Shown piece by piece: positions 1 through 7,190 of a stretch of 64,000 nt of DNA. The first letter of the stretch is position 1; the number at the start of each line of letters is the position of its first letter. The notes beneath the pieces are model-generated. The model saw only the letters and a list, made by a program, of their open reading frames with translations, was not told the DNA's origin and ran no database searches. A program made the position numbers and the translations under genes. The stretch spans positions 62,001 through 126,000 of the IMG/VR virus record IMGVR_UViG_3300010157_000032; one strand, written 5' to 3'. The DNA is from a virus.

Positions 1-259
1 TGCCAGATGTACCAGCGGCAATAGTTAACAATGCACCTGCTGGGCCTACTACTAAACTAGCTGTTGCACGAACACCATTTGGTAGTGTTGGAGTTGCAAT
101 ACTGATTTGTGATGCACCTGCTGTAAAACCTGATGAGTTGTTAGCACCAGCCAATGTGATACTTGCAATCCCTTCACCGCCGATACCTTCATCAGTTGTA
201 GTGCTTGCGGAACCGACGTTACGGTTACCAAAATATTTCTTATTTAAAGGACGTCCCAT
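1..259 (-). CDS. Partial virion structural protein (C-terminus outside window)
   Basis: The reading frame is open from an ATG at 259 to the left edge, giving the first 86 residues. The protein starts MGRPLNKKYFGNRN and continues as a Gly/Ala/Ser/Thr-rich, probably beta-rich segment without lysines. An AAGGAG ribosome binding site sits just upstream of the ATG, and a perfect late promoter (TATAAATA) lies about 90 bases further upstream. I recall similar MGRPLNKKYFG starts on unnamed structural proteins of aquatic T4-like phages. The role is unknown. Late promoter control and the place after the capsid genes support a virion protein. Confidence 0.7.
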   Translation of the reverse strand, partial: MGRPLNKKYFGNRNVGSASTTTDEGIGGEGIASITLAGANNSSGFTAGASQISIATPTLPNGVRATASLVVGPAGALLTIAAGTSG

Positions 260-347: not shown

Positions 348-355
348 TATTTATA
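348..355 (-). promoter_or_regulatory. T4-type late promoter TATAAATA
   Basis: An exact TATAAATA, the core recognised by the T4 gp55 sigma factor, occurs on the minus strand. It overlaps the stop codon of the ubiquitin-like protein gene and reads toward the partial gene at 1-259. It matches the other late promoters of this window (NATAAATA followed by C or T). Confidence 0.75.
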
Positions 356-1097
356 CGTAAGTGATTCGCATAGCTACGTTGTCAATATATGCCGTATCAG
401 TGTGTGGTGTAAGAACGTTGCTTCTAAAGGCTATTGCAACACCAAAGTTTACGTTAATTGTATCTATTAACTGTATTGGACTATTCCATAAGTTTGTAGG
501 AGATCCATAAATTTTATAGTTGTCTACTCCAGGATCTGCAATATTATCGCCGACTAGTTGTCCGTTTAGAACTAGTTGCACAACATAGTCTTGAACTCTA
601 GATGCTCTGATAGAATCTATTTGAACTTCAATCCCCAGCAATGTTGATCCGTTGGGAGAAAATGCAAAGTTAGTAAACCATAACTGGCTGGTTATTGTGG
701 CAAATCGCTCTTGCCATAGACCTGATATTGTATGTAAAGGTTTAGCACTAGTGGCATACTTTGACACACCTCTACCAATGCTGGCTGCTGTATCTAGCCA
801 GCTTATACTGTTATCCGTACTTACTTGAGTTACCAAGTTTGAAACAAGAAATTTGGTAGTTGTTGGTATAGGTGCTGGCGGTACTACCAGCACTGTTAGT
901 ACTAGTACTGAAAGTTTTTGAATATTATAATCATCTAATGTTCGACCAGGTTCTAAAATAGTACCATTGTAAGTTAATTGTGGTTGTCCGGCAGGTGGAC
1001 CTATTCTATCCTGTATTTTTGCTAGGACTCCTTCGATAGAATCAGAAGACTCTACATCAATTGTGATAGTAGACGGTACCTGAACAAATATTTGCAT
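351..1097 (-). CDS. Capsid-associated protein with N-terminal ubiquitin-like domain
   Basis: 248 residues. Residues 1-72 align with eukaryotic ubiquitin: MQIFV, TIT, AKIQD, GRTL and DYNIQK are shared in order. A hand alignment gives about 40 identities over about 71 positions with one two-residue gap. The Gly-Gly tail is replaced by Pro-Pro (73-74), Lys48 by Thr46 and Ile44 by Thr42. Lys29 and Lys63 equivalents remain. A proline/threonine linker follows (about 73-82), then a beta-rich domain of about 165 residues ending [10 protein letters not shown], of the type seen in phage decoration and fibre proteins. The ATG has a CAGGAA site and a late-like promoter 19 bases upstream. The gene follows gp23 and its terminator, so an outer capsid or decoration role is inferred. 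Conjugation is unlikely. Confidence 0.8.
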
Positions 1098-1115
1098 AAT
1101 AAATTCCTGTTAGTA

Positions 1116-1123
1116 TATTTACC
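1116..1123 (-). promoter_or_regulatory. Late-promoter-like GGTAAATA before the ubiquitin-like gene
   Basis: The sequence differs from NATAAATA by one base (G at position 2). It ends 19 bases before the ATG at 1097, the same spacing as at the exact late promoters before the gp6 and fibre genes. It lies directly downstream of the gp23 terminator, where a new promoter would be needed. Confidence 0.5.
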
Positions 1124-1128
1124 CAAAG

Positions 1129-1152
1129 AAAAACGCCCCGAAGGGCGTTTTT
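1129..1152 (-). terminator. Strong intrinsic terminator after gp23
   Basis: A perfect 10-bp stem (AAAAACGCCC with GGGCGTTTTT) closes a four-base loop, which on the minus strand is UUCG flanked by C and G, the very stable CUUCGG type common in T4. It ends in a T-run about 30 bases after the gp23 stop. The sequence is symmetrical enough to stop transcription in both directions. Confidence 0.85.
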
Positions 1153-1180
1153 AATTTTGCTAAAGCAAAAAGTTACAGGA

Positions 1181-2356
1181 TTACTGGAACTTAACGTTAC
1201 CTGAAGTAATACCAACTAGACCTAAATAGTCAGCGGCGTTACCTAAGCTACTTGCTGTGTTCGACAACTCAACATAACCATAACGTGTCATGAATGATAC
1301 GACTGGCTCAAATGTTGATGGATCTAAAACAACACCACTGCTCATCAATGGAATGTATGGGCAATAGAAAGCAGGAGCATCAGATTCTGAAGAACCTTTG
1401 TAACCTACTAGGATGCTTTGTGAATCGCTAGCATATGAGTTAACATATACTTTCATAGCATTGTTCAATGTACCAACAAACTTAGTGTTTGTAGGTGCTT
1501 CGAATGTACCTTCTGTTGTACGAGCAAATGCGCTAGTAGTAGCAGATTGTAGAATTGTCAATGCAAATGGGCTAACCACAGCGTAGTTACCAGCACCACG
1601 ACGTGTACGTTGAGCGATCAAGTTAGCAACGCGGTTGATCATAACTGCCAAGGCAGCATGCTCATCACCCACGAATGTTGCTGTACCAGATACTGACGCT
1701 TGGTCGTATGTGTATAAAGCTGAACCAGCTAATGATTGTAGGCTAGCTAGAATCTCTTGGTCGATCTCAGCAGTAATTTCTTGTGCTAGAGCAGCCATGA
1801 TTTCAGCTTCTACGTCAATACCTTGTTGTGCTTGTGCATCTTGAGCTGATTCAAATGTCCAGCGAGCTGACAATTTACGTGTCTTCGCTTCAACAGTTTG
1901 TTTCAAGATTTGAATGCTTAATCTGTTACCAGCTTGACCTTCTAAAGTAGCTGTTGAGCTAGCCTTAGGAGTTGCGTCAGTTGTGTTACCAGAGTAAGAA
2001 GCCGCAATCTTGAATGGGCTCAATGCCTCTTCACCAGCTACTACACCAGCGCCCGATGATGAATCAGCGTAGCGAACACGTAGAGTGTGAATTTGTCCTA
2101 CTGGACCAGTCATTGGTTGTACGCCTAACAACTCGTTAGCAATAACGGTTGGCATTACGCGGCGGATTACTGGAAGAATCACGCGATTTAGTGTTGCAAC
2201 GTTACCGGCAGAAGTGGCACCAGCAGTAGCGGATTCTGCAAGATACTTACGAGTATTCTCAAGAGCCACGCCCATTACTGATTTTTTAGTGCCTGATAGG
2301 CCTTCTAAAAGTGCTTCTTTAGTTTCTGCCCAACGTCCGTTTAATAGTTCTGACAT
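1181..2356 (-). CDS. 23: Major capsid protein gp23
   Basis: 391 residues, shorter than T4 gp23 (521), so the T4 insertion domain is probably missing or reduced. It forms the hexamers of the head shell. The N-terminal 41 residues look like the propeptide removed by protease gp21: KYLAE before SATAGATSAG fits the L/I-x-E cleavage rule, with the cut after Glu41. The following text (RVILPVIRRVMPTVIANELL, then VQPMTGPVGQIHTLRVRY) is typical of the family. The ATG has an AAGGAG site. The gene follows gp22 by 12 bases and is closed by a strong terminator, the classic T4 head-gene order 20-(67/68)-21-22-23. Confidence 0.95.
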   Translation of the reverse strand: MSELLNGRWAETKEALLEGLSGTKKSVMGVALENTRKYLAESATAGATSAGNVATLNRVILPVIRRVMPTVIANELLGVQPMTGPVGQIHTLRVRYADSSSGAGVVAGEEALSPFKIAASYSGNTTDATPKASSTATLEGQAGNRLSIQILKQTVEAKTRKLSARWTFESAQDAQAQQGIDVEAEIMAALAQEITAEIDQEILASLQSLAGSALYTYDQASVSGTATFVGDEHAALAVMINRVANLIAQRTRRGAGNYAVVSPFALTILQSATTSAFARTTEGTFEAPTNTKFVGTLNNAMKVYVNSYASDSQSILVGYKGSSESDAPAFYCPYIPLMSSGVVLDPSTFEPVVSFMTRYGYVELSNTASSLGNAADYLGLVGITSGNVKFQ

Positions 2357-2368
2357 TTAAATTTCTCC

Positions 2369-3472
2369 TTAAAATTTTAGTCCAGCAAGTTTGCGAATAT
2401 CAATGATATTGGCATCTGACTCGCTACTATGATTGGTGTTGGAAATTTTATTTCCTGTGACTTCTTTTGCCTCTACAAGTGCCTGTTTCTTCTGCGGAGC
2501 TCTTCCAGTGTTACCAGAGATAACTGATGGTAGATACTTTTCAAAACTTTCGTTTAGACGTTCTGTTTTCACAGACTCCATTAATTCGCCCATGATTGAA
2601 CGTTGCTCATTGTTTAGAGGAGCTAGTAATTCATTCATGATTGCTTTTCTTTCTTGACTCTCTTTAAGAGCACGGATGGTAGCTTCTTTACTTTCTAATA
2701 TTTGTTCTGCTTTTGCAACGGCCTGTGCGGCTTCTTGCATTGCCAAATCTTTCAAGTCTATAACTTTGAGTAATTTTGCTGTTTCCGATTTTTCATTTAG
2801 GTAACTTGTAGAATATTCTGCGGCAAAAGCTTCGAATAATTTACGTCCAAAATCTGCGCGACGAGCGGCTTCAATGTCTTCTTTCAGTGCTGTAATTTCA
2901 GAGTTTAAATTCTGAGTTACTACTGATTCAACCATCTTAGCGGCACGGGTAACAAATTCTTGTTGTACCTTCTTGATTTCTTTACGACCTTCACGGACTA
3001 AGCGAACTTTCGTTTCAGCTAAGTCTTGTTTGTCTTTGTAAAACTCTGTGATTTCTTGAGCTAGAGCCTCAACTACGAATTGTTCTAGTTTACCAAATTT
3101 ACTTGCCATAACCACCTGATCTTCGTGTAACTCACGAACTTCAGAAGCTAACTGACGTGTAACAAATTCCTTCATTACTTCAGTGTCTTTCTTCATCTTC
3201 TTAGCATATTTGACTTTCATCTCAGCTAATTGATTGCGGTCATCTGCAAACTCGACAATCTCAACAGCTAGTTGTTCAGAGATCATACGATCTACTGCTT
3301 CAACCATTGTGTTTTTGTCGTGTTCGTATTTTTGTGCAAACTCTTCACGTAATTGTTCAGCTACTTGTGTACGAGCTTCGTTAATACGACTCTCGAAAGC
3401 GGCTTCAATTGACTCCTTGATCTCTTCAGAAATCATGCTGTTTTCAAATAAACCTTTTAGTGCATCCAACAT
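2369..3472 (-). CDS. 22: Prohead core scaffold protein gp22
   Basis: 367 residues (T4 gp22: 269). It is almost wholly charged and helical, with long Glu/Lys/Gln/Ala-rich coiled-coil stretches and recurring units such as ASEVRELHED, AQEITEFYKD and NSEITALKED, suggesting internal duplication of a helical segment of about 50 residues. It would form the inner core on which gp23 assembles and then be degraded by gp21. The assignment rests on composition and on its exact place between gp21 and gp23, not on a single motif. The ATG has an AAGGAG site 7 bases upstream. Confidence 0.85.
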   Translation of the reverse strand: MLDALKGLFENSMISEEIKESIEAAFESRINEARTQVAEQLREEFAQKYEHDKNTMVEAVDRMISEQLAVEIVEFADDRNQLAEMKVKYAKKMKKDTEVMKEFVTRQLASEVRELHEDQVVMASKFGKLEQFVVEALAQEITEFYKDKQDLAETKVRLVREGRKEIKKVQQEFVTRAAKMVESVVTQNLNSEITALKEDIEAARRADFGRKLFEAFAAEYSTSYLNEKSETAKLLKVIDLKDLAMQEAAQAVAKAEQILESKEATIRALKESQERKAIMNELLAPLNNEQRSIMGELMESVKTERLNESFEKYLPSVISGNTGRAPQKKQALVEAKEVTGNKISNTNHSSESDANIIDIRKLAGLKF

Positions 3473-3485
3473 ATGATTCTCCTTA

Positions 3486-4121
3486 TTATTGGAGTTTGTT
3501 TATTATTGCTAATAAACTCTCTTTGAGATATTTCTGTGCTTTAGGGTCGCCCTTGACCTCTTGCGCTATGCGTAAGGAACTTAATCCGCCTCGACTATTC
3601 ATCAAGTGTTCATAAATTGGTGTAGGGTATGCTCCAGGAGCACTAGGTTGAGCTACCATATCTACTGTGATAATCTCAAAATCTGATACTTCTCCTGATC
3701 CGTCTTCTTTTACGTTGCCGGATCCGCGACTTGAAACTCCTAACTTGACTCCGCTTTCCAACATTGTCTTGATAAGTTGTCCCATAGGGGTTGGTAAAAT
3801 TTTCAGTTTACCGTAACCGTTAGGACCGTCCATCCACATGTTTGTTATCATGTGTGACACACGGTCCAGGTTAATTTTTAGATCATCTGGATGATCTACT
3901 TCTCCGAGAACTGAATAACCGTTCTGAATCTGATCGTTTAGGGTTTTGACAGCCTTGCCAATCTCATTAACAGGGTAAACACGCTGGTTAGCGTTACGTA
4001 TACCGCCCTGGATACAAATCCCGGACATGTATAAGTTTTTCCCATCTTTGTCATCAGATTCAACGATCATTTTTGCTTCGTTGAAACTGAGATTCTCTCG
4101 GAGGTATAACATATTTTTCAA
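3486..4121 (-). CDS. 21: Prohead protease gp21
   Basis: 211 residues, the length of T4 gp21 (212). It is the maturation protease that cleaves the scaffold, the gp23 propeptide and internal proteins after L/I-x-E. The herpes/T4-type serine protease signature is visible: GEVDHPDD with His77, GVSSRGSG with Ser130/131, and ITVDMVAQPS with Asp154 as the likely third residue, followed by the family ending PGAYPTPIYEHL. The listed start is TTG at 4121. An ATG nine bases downstream (4112) is equally possible, since neither has a clear ribosome binding site. The gene sits 12 bases after the acidic core protein gene. Confidence 0.9.
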   Translation of the reverse strand: MKNMLYLRENLSFNEAKMIVESDDKDGKNLYMSGICIQGGIRNANQRVYPVNEIGKAVKTLNDQIQNGYSVLGEVDHPDDLKINLDRVSHMITNMWMDGPNGYGKLKILPTPMGQLIKTMLESGVKLGVSSRGSGNVKEDGSGEVSDFEIITVDMVAQPSAPGAYPTPIYEHLMNSRGGLSSLRIAQEVKGDPKAQKYLKESLLAIINKLQ

Positions 4122-4133
4122 TGTTTTATCTTA

Positions 4134-5072
4134 TTACTTACGGGCACGTAAAGTGCTTTGGGTATTCTTTTCACCATCACGTGAATTTTTACCTGTCTCT
4201 GCACCTGCGTTTTGTCCTGGCTTGTTAAAACCAGCTTGACGATCAATTCCGCCACCCTTTACTTGAGTTTTGAATCCTGTCTTGCCTGCTTTGCCGCCTG
4301 GAACATTAACGTTGCCTTTGGCATCTGGGTTAGGAACTACATTCGTACCCATTACGCCGTTGCCTTTAACTGTTGATTTAGCGCCAATGTCAGCACTAAC
4401 TTCACGCTGTCCATTTACGATGTTAGCAGTGGTGCCGCCCATATTGTTACGTGGACTACTTTTTCCGCCTAGCATACTTGTATTTTGTACACCGTTGTCG
4501 CCGTGTGTTGGATTTGGAACTTTGTTAACATATTCCATAATTGGCATGCCTTCAGCGTCCATGTCACCACCCATGTCACCCATGTCGTCACCACCCATGT
4601 CGTGGATACCAGGATGGTCAGCTTCTTCAGCTTCTTCGCCGGCTAATAGTTGTTCAAATTCTGCTTTTAGATCTTCTAGAGCATCTTCTAGATCCATTAC
4701 GCGATCTTCCATATCACCATCTTCAGCACCTTCTTCGTCGCCGAAGTCTGGTTCTTCTTCTGAATCAGCATCATCACCTTCTTCATCGTCTGACTCTTCA
4801 TCGTCTGACTCTTCATCGTCGGCACCTTCTTCTTCCATGCCTTCTTCTTCCATGCCTTCTTCTTCCATGCCTTCTTCCTTGAAGTCTTCTTGTTCTTCTG
4901 AACCGTAGGCTGGGCCACGATCTTTGGAATCGTCAAATTCGCTTTCTAATAATTCTTCGTAGATTTCACGTGATTTTCCAACAACGATATTGTGGAATAT
5001 TTCTTTAGCTTGTTCTTGATCATCATTGATCAAAGCTTCTAGCATAGCTTCAAATTGAGCGCGGTCAGTCAT
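4134..5072 (-). CDS. Acidic prohead core protein, gp67/gp68 position
   Basis: 312 residues. Residues 1-45 form a helical start (FEAMLEALINDDQEQAKEIF). Then follows a very acidic tract (about 60-120) with three direct repeats of an MEEEG unit and DDEES repeats, a short coiled coil (about 123-145), a Gly/Met/Asp stretch and a basic, Gly/Asn-rich C-terminus ending TLRARK. T4 has the two small core proteins gp67 and gp68 in this slot between gp20 and gp21. Acidic composition and position suggest the same role, perhaps as one fused protein. The ATG has a clear AGGAG. Long antisense frames here are by-products of the repeats. Confidence 0.65.
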   Translation of the reverse strand: MTDRAQFEAMLEALINDDQEQAKEIFHNIVVGKSREIYEELLESEFDDSKDRGPAYGSEEQEDFKEEGMEEEGMEEEGMEEEGADDEESDDEESDDEEGDDADSEEEPDFGDEEGAEDGDMEDRVMDLEDALEDLKAEFEQLLAGEEAEEADHPGIHDMGGDDMGDMGGDMDAEGMPIMEYVNKVPNPTHGDNGVQNTSMLGGKSSPRNNMGGTTANIVNGQREVSADIGAKSTVKGNGVMGTNVVPNPDAKGNVNVPGGKAGKTGFKTQVKGGGIDRQAGFNKPGQNAGAETGKNSRDGEKNTQSTLRARK

Positions 5073-5438: not shown

Positions 5439-7190
5439 TTATGCTGCCGGTGGTGGAGGAGGTGCACCTGGTTGTGCTGGAGCTCCGCCAACTGCTCCTT
5501 CTCCGCCTGTTTCTGCATCTTGCATATCTTCCGGAGCATCCATATCACCTGCGGCGCCTAAATCACCCTCTATACCAGCGGCACTCAGGCCTGCTGAACG
5601 TAATTCACCAGCGGCATCTGTATGATTAGGTTGTCCTTTGCCAGCTTCTTCAGCCCACATGCGTTCGTTTTCTGCTACTTCTTCGTCTGTTAAGCCTAAA
5701 AAACGTTTAAGAGCAAAGCGTTTTGATACAAACGGCACAGCTTGAATAGTATTAAATGTATTAATACGCTCTGTATCCATAGCCGCTTGTCGACTTGATG
5801 CAAAGTTCATTGGAGGATTAAACTGTAACTCAAATAGATTCGCATCTAAGTTAAGCCCTTTACTCTCCATATACATTTTAAACTCTTCATCAAACACTGC
5901 TGTGATAAGACTCTGTAGTCTTTCACAGTATTTGTTAAAGCGTAGCTCTTGAATATAAGCTGTTCCTACTCTGCCGTCGTTGAAACTTGCTTGCGAATCG
6001 TCCGCGCCAGTAGGTAAGTAACTGCTAGGAATCCGCAAACCTCTAAAAAGTTTGTTCGTAAAGTATTTAAGGTCATCAATTTCACCTAAATTAGTACCGC
6101 CGGGCAGTGTTTCTACTTTAGAACCACGTCCTTCCGCTGTTGTTGGGAAGAAATAGTCTTCATTGATTGACAATGGGTTATACGCACTGTCAATAACATT
6201 CTGCCCGCCACCCGATTGGCTAGGAATACGGCGCTGATGGATTTCATTTTTAACACGTTCTACGAATGCCATGGCCAAATGGCTTGGCATGTTGCCCACA
6301 TCAATGTGAAATACCCTGCGTTCTGGCGCACGTTGTATACGATAGATTAAAATTGCATCTTCAAGCAACTCTTTCTGTTTGTAAACTTTAAAAATGTTTT
6401 CAAGTAAACTGTTACCAAACGGATAATTTTGATCTAGACCTTCCGACAGACTTAAATGTATCATGTGTTTAGCATCAACAGCATTTTCTTTCTGATTTAA
6501 TCCAAAACGACCACCACCACCACCAGCTGAATACGGGCCTGATGCACCTTTTCCGCTACTACCTTGACCTAAATTGCCGCTTACTCCTTGAGTTCCGCCT
6601 GAACCTGCACGTGGACTCACTGTAGGGGTAATCATTGTAGCAACTAAATTTTCAAAATTAGGTGCTAGATCTTTAACCACATACTGTTCAGGTTTCTTGC
6701 CTTCGCTTTCATTTACAATAACTTTGACAATGTTTGCTGGATCTACGTAAGACCATTTTTGATTTTCTGGATCGCGAATAAAAAAACTATCGCCATACTT
6801 GAATACGTTGCGCACAATACGAAATATTCTAGTATCAAACTGCTGTAGCTTATTCCATTGCTGTAGGTATTCACCTAAAATCTTAATTTCACTGTTAGTA
6901 GCTTTGTGGCGCCATTTAACTGAGAATGGACTTTTGTTATCTTTTACTTTTTGTGTGCAAAACTCTGCAAGAATATCTAGTGCGGCATTAACTTCAGGAT
7001 CTGAATCCATTACTTCGTATTGGCTATAACGTTCAACACGATTTGGACTACCTGTATAGATATCAGGTAGATAACTTGAATAGTTTGTTTGTGCGGGCCC
7101 TGGTCTAGATCCGCTGTTGTTTGCACCAGAGATAGGCCCTAATAGTTGCCCATTAACTGCTACTGGTGTGAAATATTTTTTCCAACTCAT
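5439..7190 (-). CDS. 20: Portal vertex protein gp20
   Basis: 583 residues (T4 gp20: 524). It forms the twelve-part ring at the unique head vertex, the starting point for head assembly and the channel for DNA. Family features include RYSQYEVMDSDPEVNAALD, the IYRIQRAPERRVFHIDVGNM segment, ENYFFP-like NEDYFFPTTAEGRGSKVETL and GGTNLGEIDDLKYF, then LFRGLRIPSSYL. A Gly/Ser-rich insert lies at about 200-230. The C-terminus is an unusual Pro/Ala/Gly tail of about 45 residues ending in five prolines and two alanines. The start has AAGGATAATAG before the ATG and lies 9 bases after the tape-measure-like gene. Confidence 0.95.
   Translation of the reverse strand: MSWKKYFTPVAVNGQLLGPISGANNSGSRPGPAQTNYSSYLPDIYTGSPNRVERYSQYEVMDSDPEVNAALDILAEFCTQKVKDNKSPFSVKWRHKATNSEIKILGEYLQQWNKLQQFDTRIFRIVRNVFKYGDSFFIRDPENQKWSYVDPANIVKVIVNESEGKKPEQYVVKDLAPNFENLVATMITPTVSPRAGSGGTQGVSGNLGQGSSGKGASGPYSAGGGGGRFGLNQKENAVDAKHMIHLSLSEGLDQNYPFGNSLLENIFKVYKQKELLEDAILIYRIQRAPERRVFHIDVGNMPSHLAMAFVERVKNEIHQRRIPSQSGGGQNVIDSAYNPLSINEDYFFPTTAEGRGSKVETLPGGTNLGEIDDLKYFTNKLFRGLRIPSSYLPTGADDSQASFNDGRVGTAYIQELRFNKYCERLQSLITAVFDEEFKMYMESKGLNLDANLFELQFNPPMNFASSRQAAMDTERINTFNTIQAVPFVSKRFALKRFLGLTDEEVAENERMWAEEAGKGQPNHTDAAGELRSAGLSAAGIEGDLGAAGDMDAPEDMQDAETGGEGAVGGAPAQPGAPPPPPAA

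Follow-up and report, generated by a model that had tools for sequence, protein, structure and literature searches.

Genes and signals at the locus

The window, by which we mean the whole stretch of 64,000 nucleotides analyzed here, carries near its start a gene of 248 codons on the minus strand (351..1097; ATG at 1097, stop at 351), which encodes an N-terminal ubiquitin domain (residues 1-70; 888..1097, minus strand) as delimited by the Pfam family PF00240, a structural model and alignment. The domain is followed by the linker VVPPAPIPT in the place of the LRGG end of ubiquitin (residues 71-79; 861..887, minus strand) and by a C-terminal beta-sandwich-like domain (residues 80-248; 354..860, minus strand), hereafter the C-domain, which is encoded by a free-standing gene for 171 amino acids at three related loci (L003-L005). 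The reading frame extends only four codons upstream of Met1, and no signal peptide was found in the 248-residue protein. A single copy of the C-domain was detected by profile search in the 165-kb virus record to which the window belongs.

Upstream on the same strand lie genes matching PHROG families for the portal (gp20-like; 5439..7190, minus strand; PHROG 213, E 5e-112), the head maturation protease (gp21-like; 3486..4121, minus strand; PHROG 207, E 3e-59), a scaffold-like protein (2369..3472, minus strand; the unnamed PHROG 10922, E 2e-79, and PHROG 237, head scaffolding, E 9e-5) and the major head protein gp23 (1181..2356, minus strand; PHROG 138, E 4e-97). The last of these assignments confirms the original prediction that the ubiquitin-encoding gene is the first after gp23, from which it is separated by 83 bases. 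The closest gp23 of a named phage is that of the Sinorhizobium phage Phosso (469 kb; 72.7% identity), and those of jumbo phages such as Vibrio 2.275.O, CBB and GAP32 are 68-70% identical. The gene is co-oriented with the head genes, which is a feature of a decoration-type context; the hoc and soc genes of T4 are located away from gene 23. The next gene (2..259, minus strand), the product of which starts with MGRPLN (MGRPLNKKYFGN...), runs off the window and is strongly divergent among relatives; it shares its strand with the ubiquitin-encoding gene, as do the genes beyond it.

A terminator-like hairpin with a T-run follows gp23 (1129..1152, minus strand), and just after it is found the element GTAAATA (1116..1122, minus strand), which agrees at six of eight positions with the T4 late promoter consensus TATAAATA. 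The element is conserved at four related loci (L002, L003, L115 and L117), which also have hairpins in the same place. A Shine-Dalgarno-like AGGA (1105..1108, minus strand) is located 7 nt before the ATG. The late-like promoter that had been proposed for this gene is therefore plausible from its conservation but weak in its match to the consensus, and together with the Shine-Dalgarno-like sequence it lends slight support to a possible late expression. An exact TATAAATA is present at 348-355 on the minus strand, at the end of the gene and ahead of the MGRPLN gene, and is one of only three such sites found when both strands of the window were searched.

A ubiquitin fold with a changed surface

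Residues 1-70 are identical to human ubiquitin at 40 of the 70 aligned positions, in agreement with the earlier count by hand of about 40 in about 71, and the alignment score of 167 is far above those of 2000 shuffles of the phage domain (mean 12.9, sd 5.5, maximum 44). Residues 4-68 match PF00240 with an E-value of 3.1e-12 and 46.5 bits, against a curated cutoff of 25.4, and single-ubiquitin chains of the PDB, among the 60 matches listed, score 58.5-61.3 bits (E 1e-15 to 8e-15). The AlphaFold2 model of this part has pLDDT values of 80-94 by ten-residue blocks and adopts the beta-grasp fold, superposing on ubiquitin in VIA-align with Z 14.4 and an rmsd of 1.2 over 68 residues; when the whole model was used for a structure search, the matches were filled by ubiquitin. 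The profile match above cutoff and the modelled fold thus bear out the prediction of a ubiquitin domain, and it is virtually certain that the domain is a genuine ubiquitin homologue. Chance similarity was considered and is ruled out by the shuffles and the profile scores.

The domain resembles human ubiquitin in its fold, its identities and its hydrophobic core, all 14 positions of which are hydrophobic, but differs from it in having neither the Gly-Gly end nor the Leu8-Ile44-Val70 patch, in its shorter first loop and in its fusion to a phage domain. The same pattern was found in a residue census of the five fused phage copies, namely those of the window and of L002, L115, L011 and L122 (the stand-alone phage type of L017 and its kin was left out). 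The core is retained at 14 of 14 positions in all five, and none of them has kept Leu8, Ile44, His68, Val70 or Gly-Gly. Every fused copy has Thr at position 70 and either Val or Ile at position 68; position 44 is Thr in four and Lys in one, and the first turn is shortened in all five, as against none of the 80 prokaryote copies that were the best of 257. In the window copy, position 8 is deleted, positions 44, 68 and 70 are Thr, Val and Thr, and Arg42, Arg72 and Arg74 are also lost; K29 and K63 are kept. As had been predicted, the Gly-Gly tail is replaced by Pro-Pro at ubiquitin positions 75-76, and the long C-terminal extension that follows leaves no exposed or cleavable Gly-Gly junction. Between the window and L002, codons 8-76 of the ubiquitin part differ with dN 0.020 and dS 0.141 (one pair with few changes), which suggests that this part may be under purifying selection.

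The Leu8-Ile44-Val70 patch, together with His68, is the recognition surface for ubiquitin receptors, and positions 42, 72 and 74 with the patch are contacts of ubiquitin with its enzymes. Because both the Gly-Gly end and the patch are lost in all five fused copies, conjugation and ordinary mimicry of ubiquitin are unlikely. The phage domain is very probably not conjugated, and, judging from these residues, its recognition by ordinary ubiquitin receptors would be unlikely. The proposal of a ubiquitin mimic, in the ordinary sense of the term, is accordingly not supported, given the changes at residues 8, 44, 68 and 70 and at Gly75-Gly76. A conjugation operon in the phage was also considered and was set aside for the 165-kb record, in which neither an E1 (PF00899) nor a JAB (PF14464) family match was found; the record is incomplete, and conjugation genes may lie elsewhere in the genome. 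Of 14 control genomes, the same searches detected the E1 family in 12 and the JAB family in 8. The search for E2 gave no signal in any control genome.

The C-domain has no Pfam family at cutoff and no PHROG, either in the whole gene or in its stand-alone form in L003, and hence no match to a known decoration family among the PHROGs. When a six-row profile of the C-domain was compared by hhalign with the N-terminal domain of the podoviral "tail tubular protein A" of Podoviridae sp. ctRVW222 (MW202478), the two aligned over 161 columns with a probability of 96.2 and an E-value of 2e-9, which applies to one pair, the partner being one protein with one annotation. In that phage the domain lies within a longer protein of 652 amino acids in which Pfam ubiquitin has no match. 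Modelled alone, the C-domain is rich in beta structure (pLDDT 56, pTM 0.61), and its structural neighbours are generic jelly-roll, lectin and C1q-like folds with Z values of at most 7.1; Foldseek found no PDB entry for this model at E-values up to 0.001, and a second look with VIA found none with Z of 8 or more, a lack of clear matches that says nothing about the fold. The beta-rich domain that had been predicted after the linker is therefore present in two models, both of modest confidence. A segment of 11 residues is invariant in all six rows of the profile and can be regarded as a candidate docking or assembly site.

Distribution of the ubiquitin module in phages and prokaryotes

Outside the window, the fusion is present in L002 (96% identical), with 67 of 70 identical residues in the ubiquitin domain and 165 of 168 in the C-domain, and in the more distant L115 (37 of 70 and 110 of 168), so that the search for the same fusion in related phages was positive. 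A further locus, L001, is that of a 223-kb contig in which the first 5700 bases of the window recur unchanged; it represents the same population and is not independent. An assembly chimera is ruled out by the fusion in L002 and in the divergent L115, the contigs of which come from other sample numbers. The C-domain was also found without ubiquitin, as one protein of 171 amino acids in L003-L005, as one protein of 188 amino acids in L116 and L118, where gp23 is not directly in front, and as a protein of about 280 amino acids with an insertion in L117 (2473-3312). The insertion in this copy without ubiquitin amounts to roughly 105 residues. DNA alignment of L003 and L004 indicates that a ubiquitin cassette of about 240 bp is absent between conserved flanks, and in L003 gp23 is 98% and the C-domain 81% identical to that of the window. 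A search of ten records, which may be fragments, with PF00240 gave one match each above the cutoff in L001, L002, L115, L011, L122 and L017 (the last of the stand-alone type) and none in those of L003, L004, L116 and L117, which all have the C-domain alone.

Ubiquitin is therefore an optional N-terminal module and the C-domain the constant part of these proteins; the lack of the module in L003 and L117 indicates that it is not essential. The stand-alone C-domain proteins start with MITTNF (L003), MIITTNF (L116) and MITTTTF (L117), and the comparison suggests that the form without ubiquitin may be ancestral and that ubiquitin was put before an older gene. At least two changes are needed on the gp23 tree, which does not tell gain from loss of ubiquitin. 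When the window type is compared with L002, synonymous divergence is 0.007 for gp23 and 0.20 for the C-domain; in the comparison with L003 the corresponding values are 0.146 and 1.02. This jump after gp23 is a sign of exchange at the locus. With the scaffold gene as the reference (0.277 for L003) the jump is milder, and constraint on gp23 may account for the contrast. The product of the next gene is 40% identical to that of L003 and 71% identical to that of L117, and that of the gene after it is 86% identical to that of L003, so that the ubiquitin-encoding gene seems to mark one boundary of a block of structural-type genes that has been exchanged.

Among 50,697 phage records, no relative of the whole gene was found at E-values up to 0.01 and none of the ubiquitin part at E-values up to 10, and the whole gene has no match among the PHROGs. 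The C-domain gave four matches to records of named phages, at E-values of 0.3 or worse, the best of which was upheld by the profile comparison described above. Its profile found no match in Phosso or GAP32 (both complete) or in Vibrio 2.275.O (partial), all phages with a close gp23.

Two other fusions carry the module before different domains, as the C-domain profile aligns with the C-terminal parts of L011 and L122 with a probability of only 0.2 each. In L011, a contig of 13.6 kb with primase and helicase genes, ubiquitin is joined to a domain of about 170 residues, and the gene is located about 2.8 kb before one related to virion proteins of jumbo phages. The L011 ubiquitin has no relative in the 50,697 phage records at E-values up to 1, and the other domain of the protein has none in viral contigs beyond its own contig or in named phages. 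In L122 (6.1 kb), the partner of ubiquitin is a laminin-G/concanavalin-like domain (Pfam E 8.8e-10). Two genes further on is encoded a protein of 913 amino acids, the best PHROG of which is unnamed and the others of which include head decoration and tail fibre families. In L115, L011 and the window the first Met of the gene is also the start of the module, which in L002 and L122 starts two residues after it.

Several further ubiquitin genes were observed in viral contigs. A start with MGMQI instead of MQI occurs in L002 (4995-5003), in L122 (509-517) and in L125 (about 4995-5003), the proteins being otherwise different. Small stand-alone ubiquitin-like proteins of about 90 amino acids, with neither a fusion nor a Gly-Gly end, are encoded in phage-like contigs (L017, 4938-5216; L018-L025; L125, 4992-5261) and match Pfam ubiquitin with E-values of 1e-13 in L017 and 6e-10 in L125. 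L017 also has PhoH-like and rIIA genes, and its PhoH-like reading frame (1137-3014) has a long, possibly intein-like insert matching terminase and primase PHROGs. Three IMG/VR contigs (L119, 2313-2765; L120, 1976-2428; L121, 1791-2243) encode a signal-peptide-like start, ubiquitin and a sorting-like tail. In L120 this secreted-type ubiquitin is followed by genes for the small and large terminase subunits and the portal; it is possible that it is a cargo gene of a prophage, which would provide a route for phages to meet bacterial ubiquitin.

In a scan of GTDB genomes, a relative was encoded at 257 loci. The best 80 (L026-L105, one from an archaeal MAG) were kept; as these are the most query-like of the 257, averages over them are biased. 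The 80 loci come from many bacterial phyla and have varied C-terminal parts. A signal-peptide-like start, scored by a simple in-house test, is present at 68 of these best 80 of 257 loci, and an RGG end at four. Like the phage proteins, the prokaryote proteins join ubiquitin to many C-terminal parts, but they differ in the signal-peptide-like start that most of them have and in the first loop, which is shortened in none of these 80; Leu8, Ile44 and Val70 are all retained in 40. Many of the contigs are MAGs with possible eukaryotic contamination, and isolates among the kept loci include Carboxylicivirga sediminis (L028), Rhodoferax lacus (L075) and Saccharibacillus sacchari (L101). According to the survey, many bacterial phyla have eukaryote-type ubiquitin behind a signal-peptide-like start, which extends its range well beyond Bacteroides fragilis. 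The prokaryote sequences closest to the ubiquitin domain of the window are 63-65% identical, the top match being that of Curvibacter (L026; 45 of 69), which is among the 12 kept loci with no signal-like start.

A first tree of 97 rows comprised eight phage copies (three of them stand-alone), eight other IMG/VR sequences, the 80 prokaryote loci and human ubiquitin. A second tree of 36 rows, from which the three stand-alone phage rows and the eight other IMG/VR rows were dropped, comprised human ubiquitin, the five fused copies and, from the 80 loci, a selection of 30 that leaned to divergent ones. In the 36-row tree, one clade of the five fused copies is not rejected (p-AU 0.585), and the constrained tree exceeds the free tree by 5.67 log units; the grouping is allowed but not demonstrated. 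A clade of the window, L002 and L115 (p-AU 0.515) and a clade of the five fused copies with Curvibacter L026 (p-AU 0.623) are not rejected in the same tree either. The free tree places the window copy beside L026 with a support of 92/84, below the star of the tool, and trees of 71 columns do not resolve the origin of the phage copies. The transfer from a eukaryote that had been suggested is not needed in its direct form, since prokaryotes hold many such domains, although the trees cannot place the phage copies; a bacterial immediate source is somewhat favored.

Possible roles of the ubiquitin module

The 248-residue protein is probably a virion protein. It is encoded by what would be a T4-like, jumbo-type myophage and would be made late with the head genes. 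The protein may well be an accessory virion protein that docks through its C-domain and displays the ubiquitin fold outward, a reading for which we see about even chances. The C-domain would dock on the head or on another part of the virion, and the compact, very stable ubiquitin fold would face outward as a displayed binding module, a spacer or a stable cap. Ubiquitin may have been taken from the bacterial pool of eukaryote-type domains and remodelled, and recombination would exchange the module in the variable gene block after gp23. The decoration role of the original prediction is thus partly supported, by synteny, by the kinship of the C-domain with the N-terminal domain of "tail tubular protein A" and by similar modules in structural-looking genes elsewhere. 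That ubiquitin is an outward-facing module for the binding of a partner is conceivable, though we hold this part with less than even confidence. It can be proposed, tentatively and as a rather doubtful extension, that phages have domesticated ubiquitin as a portable N-terminal virion module: the five fused copies, with their shortened loop, Thr70 and hydrophobic residue 68, would be one lineage in which only the fold was kept and which was moved among the virion proteins of large phages, a new surface binding a specific partner such as the host envelope, the particle surface or a defence protein.

Several other explanations have to be weighed against display of the fold. The N-terminal ubiquitin of eukaryotic ribosomal-protein fusions is a folding aid, and the phage module may be of the same kind, aiding translation, solubility and folding of the beta domain and binding nothing. 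Its position at or within two residues of the first Met in all five fused copies, the retention of the core with loss of the binding surface and the optional presence of ubiquitin among relatives are all consistent with such a passive module; however, three C-domain genes (L003-L005, L116/L118 and L117) manage without ubiquitin, and the shortened loop, Thr70 and hydrophobic residue 68 common to the five copies are not required by stability alone, which makes this explanation unlikely, if worth retaining. The layout could also be the reverse, with ubiquitin as the virion anchor and the C-terminal domains (the beta domain, that of L011 and the lectin-like domain of L122) as the displayed, exchangeable parts. 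One kind of N-terminal module precedes three different C-terminal domains, and a lectin-like domain is typically a displayed part, but in close relatives the same C-domain occurs after gp23 without ubiquitin and must therefore reach its position there unaided, and we consider the reverse layout quite unlikely.

The modifiers of the CBASS and Bil systems are not known to be close to eukaryotic ubiquitin, positions 42, 72 and 74 and the patch, which contact the enzymes, are changed, and a place among structural genes is odd for an early counter-defence protein; an anti-defence decoy, with the ubiquitin fold as a block or distraction for the bacterial immunity that works by ubiquitin-like conjugation (CBASS Cap2/Cap3 or Bil-type), is therefore highly improbable, even though the absence of a conjugatable tail is what an inhibitor might have, and bacteria are described as using ubiquitin-like conjugation against phages (PMC10097602). 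For a mimic acting on eukaryotic cells, such as protist grazers or a protist housing the host bacterium, it can be said that the sequence is close to eukaryotic ubiquitin and that the secreted BfUbb of Bacteroides fragilis is described as forming a complex with human E1 in vitro (PMC3352274). The phage domain has nevertheless lost Gly-Gly as well as Arg42, Arg72 and Arg74, along with the recognition patch, and the gene encodes no signal peptide, so that such an action is exceedingly improbable.

Display by an accessory virion protein is best set beside systems that are already known. BfUbb is described as a stand-alone secreted ubiquitin with a signal sequence that antagonizes other strains (PMC5705921; PMC3352274), and, to the extent of these descriptions, it resembles the phage domain as a eukaryote-type ubiquitin in a prokaryotic system with no Gly-Gly end. 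Its structure (8hm2) superposes on the phage domain with Z 14.2 and an rmsd of 1.3 over 70 residues at 43% identity. Among prokaryotic systems, BfUbb offers the nearest precedent for a ubiquitin of the eukaryote type; the phage domain differs from it in having no signal sequence, in being fused and in lying in a head-gene cluster. Hoc and Soc are the capsid decoration proteins of T4 and are accessory and optional, as the phage protein may be, presumably on the head surface; the phage protein has ubiquitin instead of Ig-like domains and no PHROG match. By profile and fold, the phage domain is a member of the ubiquitin family that is neither a conjugatable ubiquitin nor a secreted protein of the BfUbb type, and what is new here is a ubiquitin domain rebuilt as a module of phage structural genes. 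No report of a ubiquitin domain in a phage was found in the open-licence literature, as judged by the titles listed.

Few eukaryotic proteins are as conserved as ubiquitin, and it is the signalling surface that accounts for this strictness. The phage copies are natural copies of ubiquitin freed from signalling, in which the core is kept and the surface is changed. If they are virion parts, they would be an example of a eukaryote-type fold turned into a phage building block; they would also be natural ubiquitin scaffolds for protein engineering and would raise the question of their binding partner.
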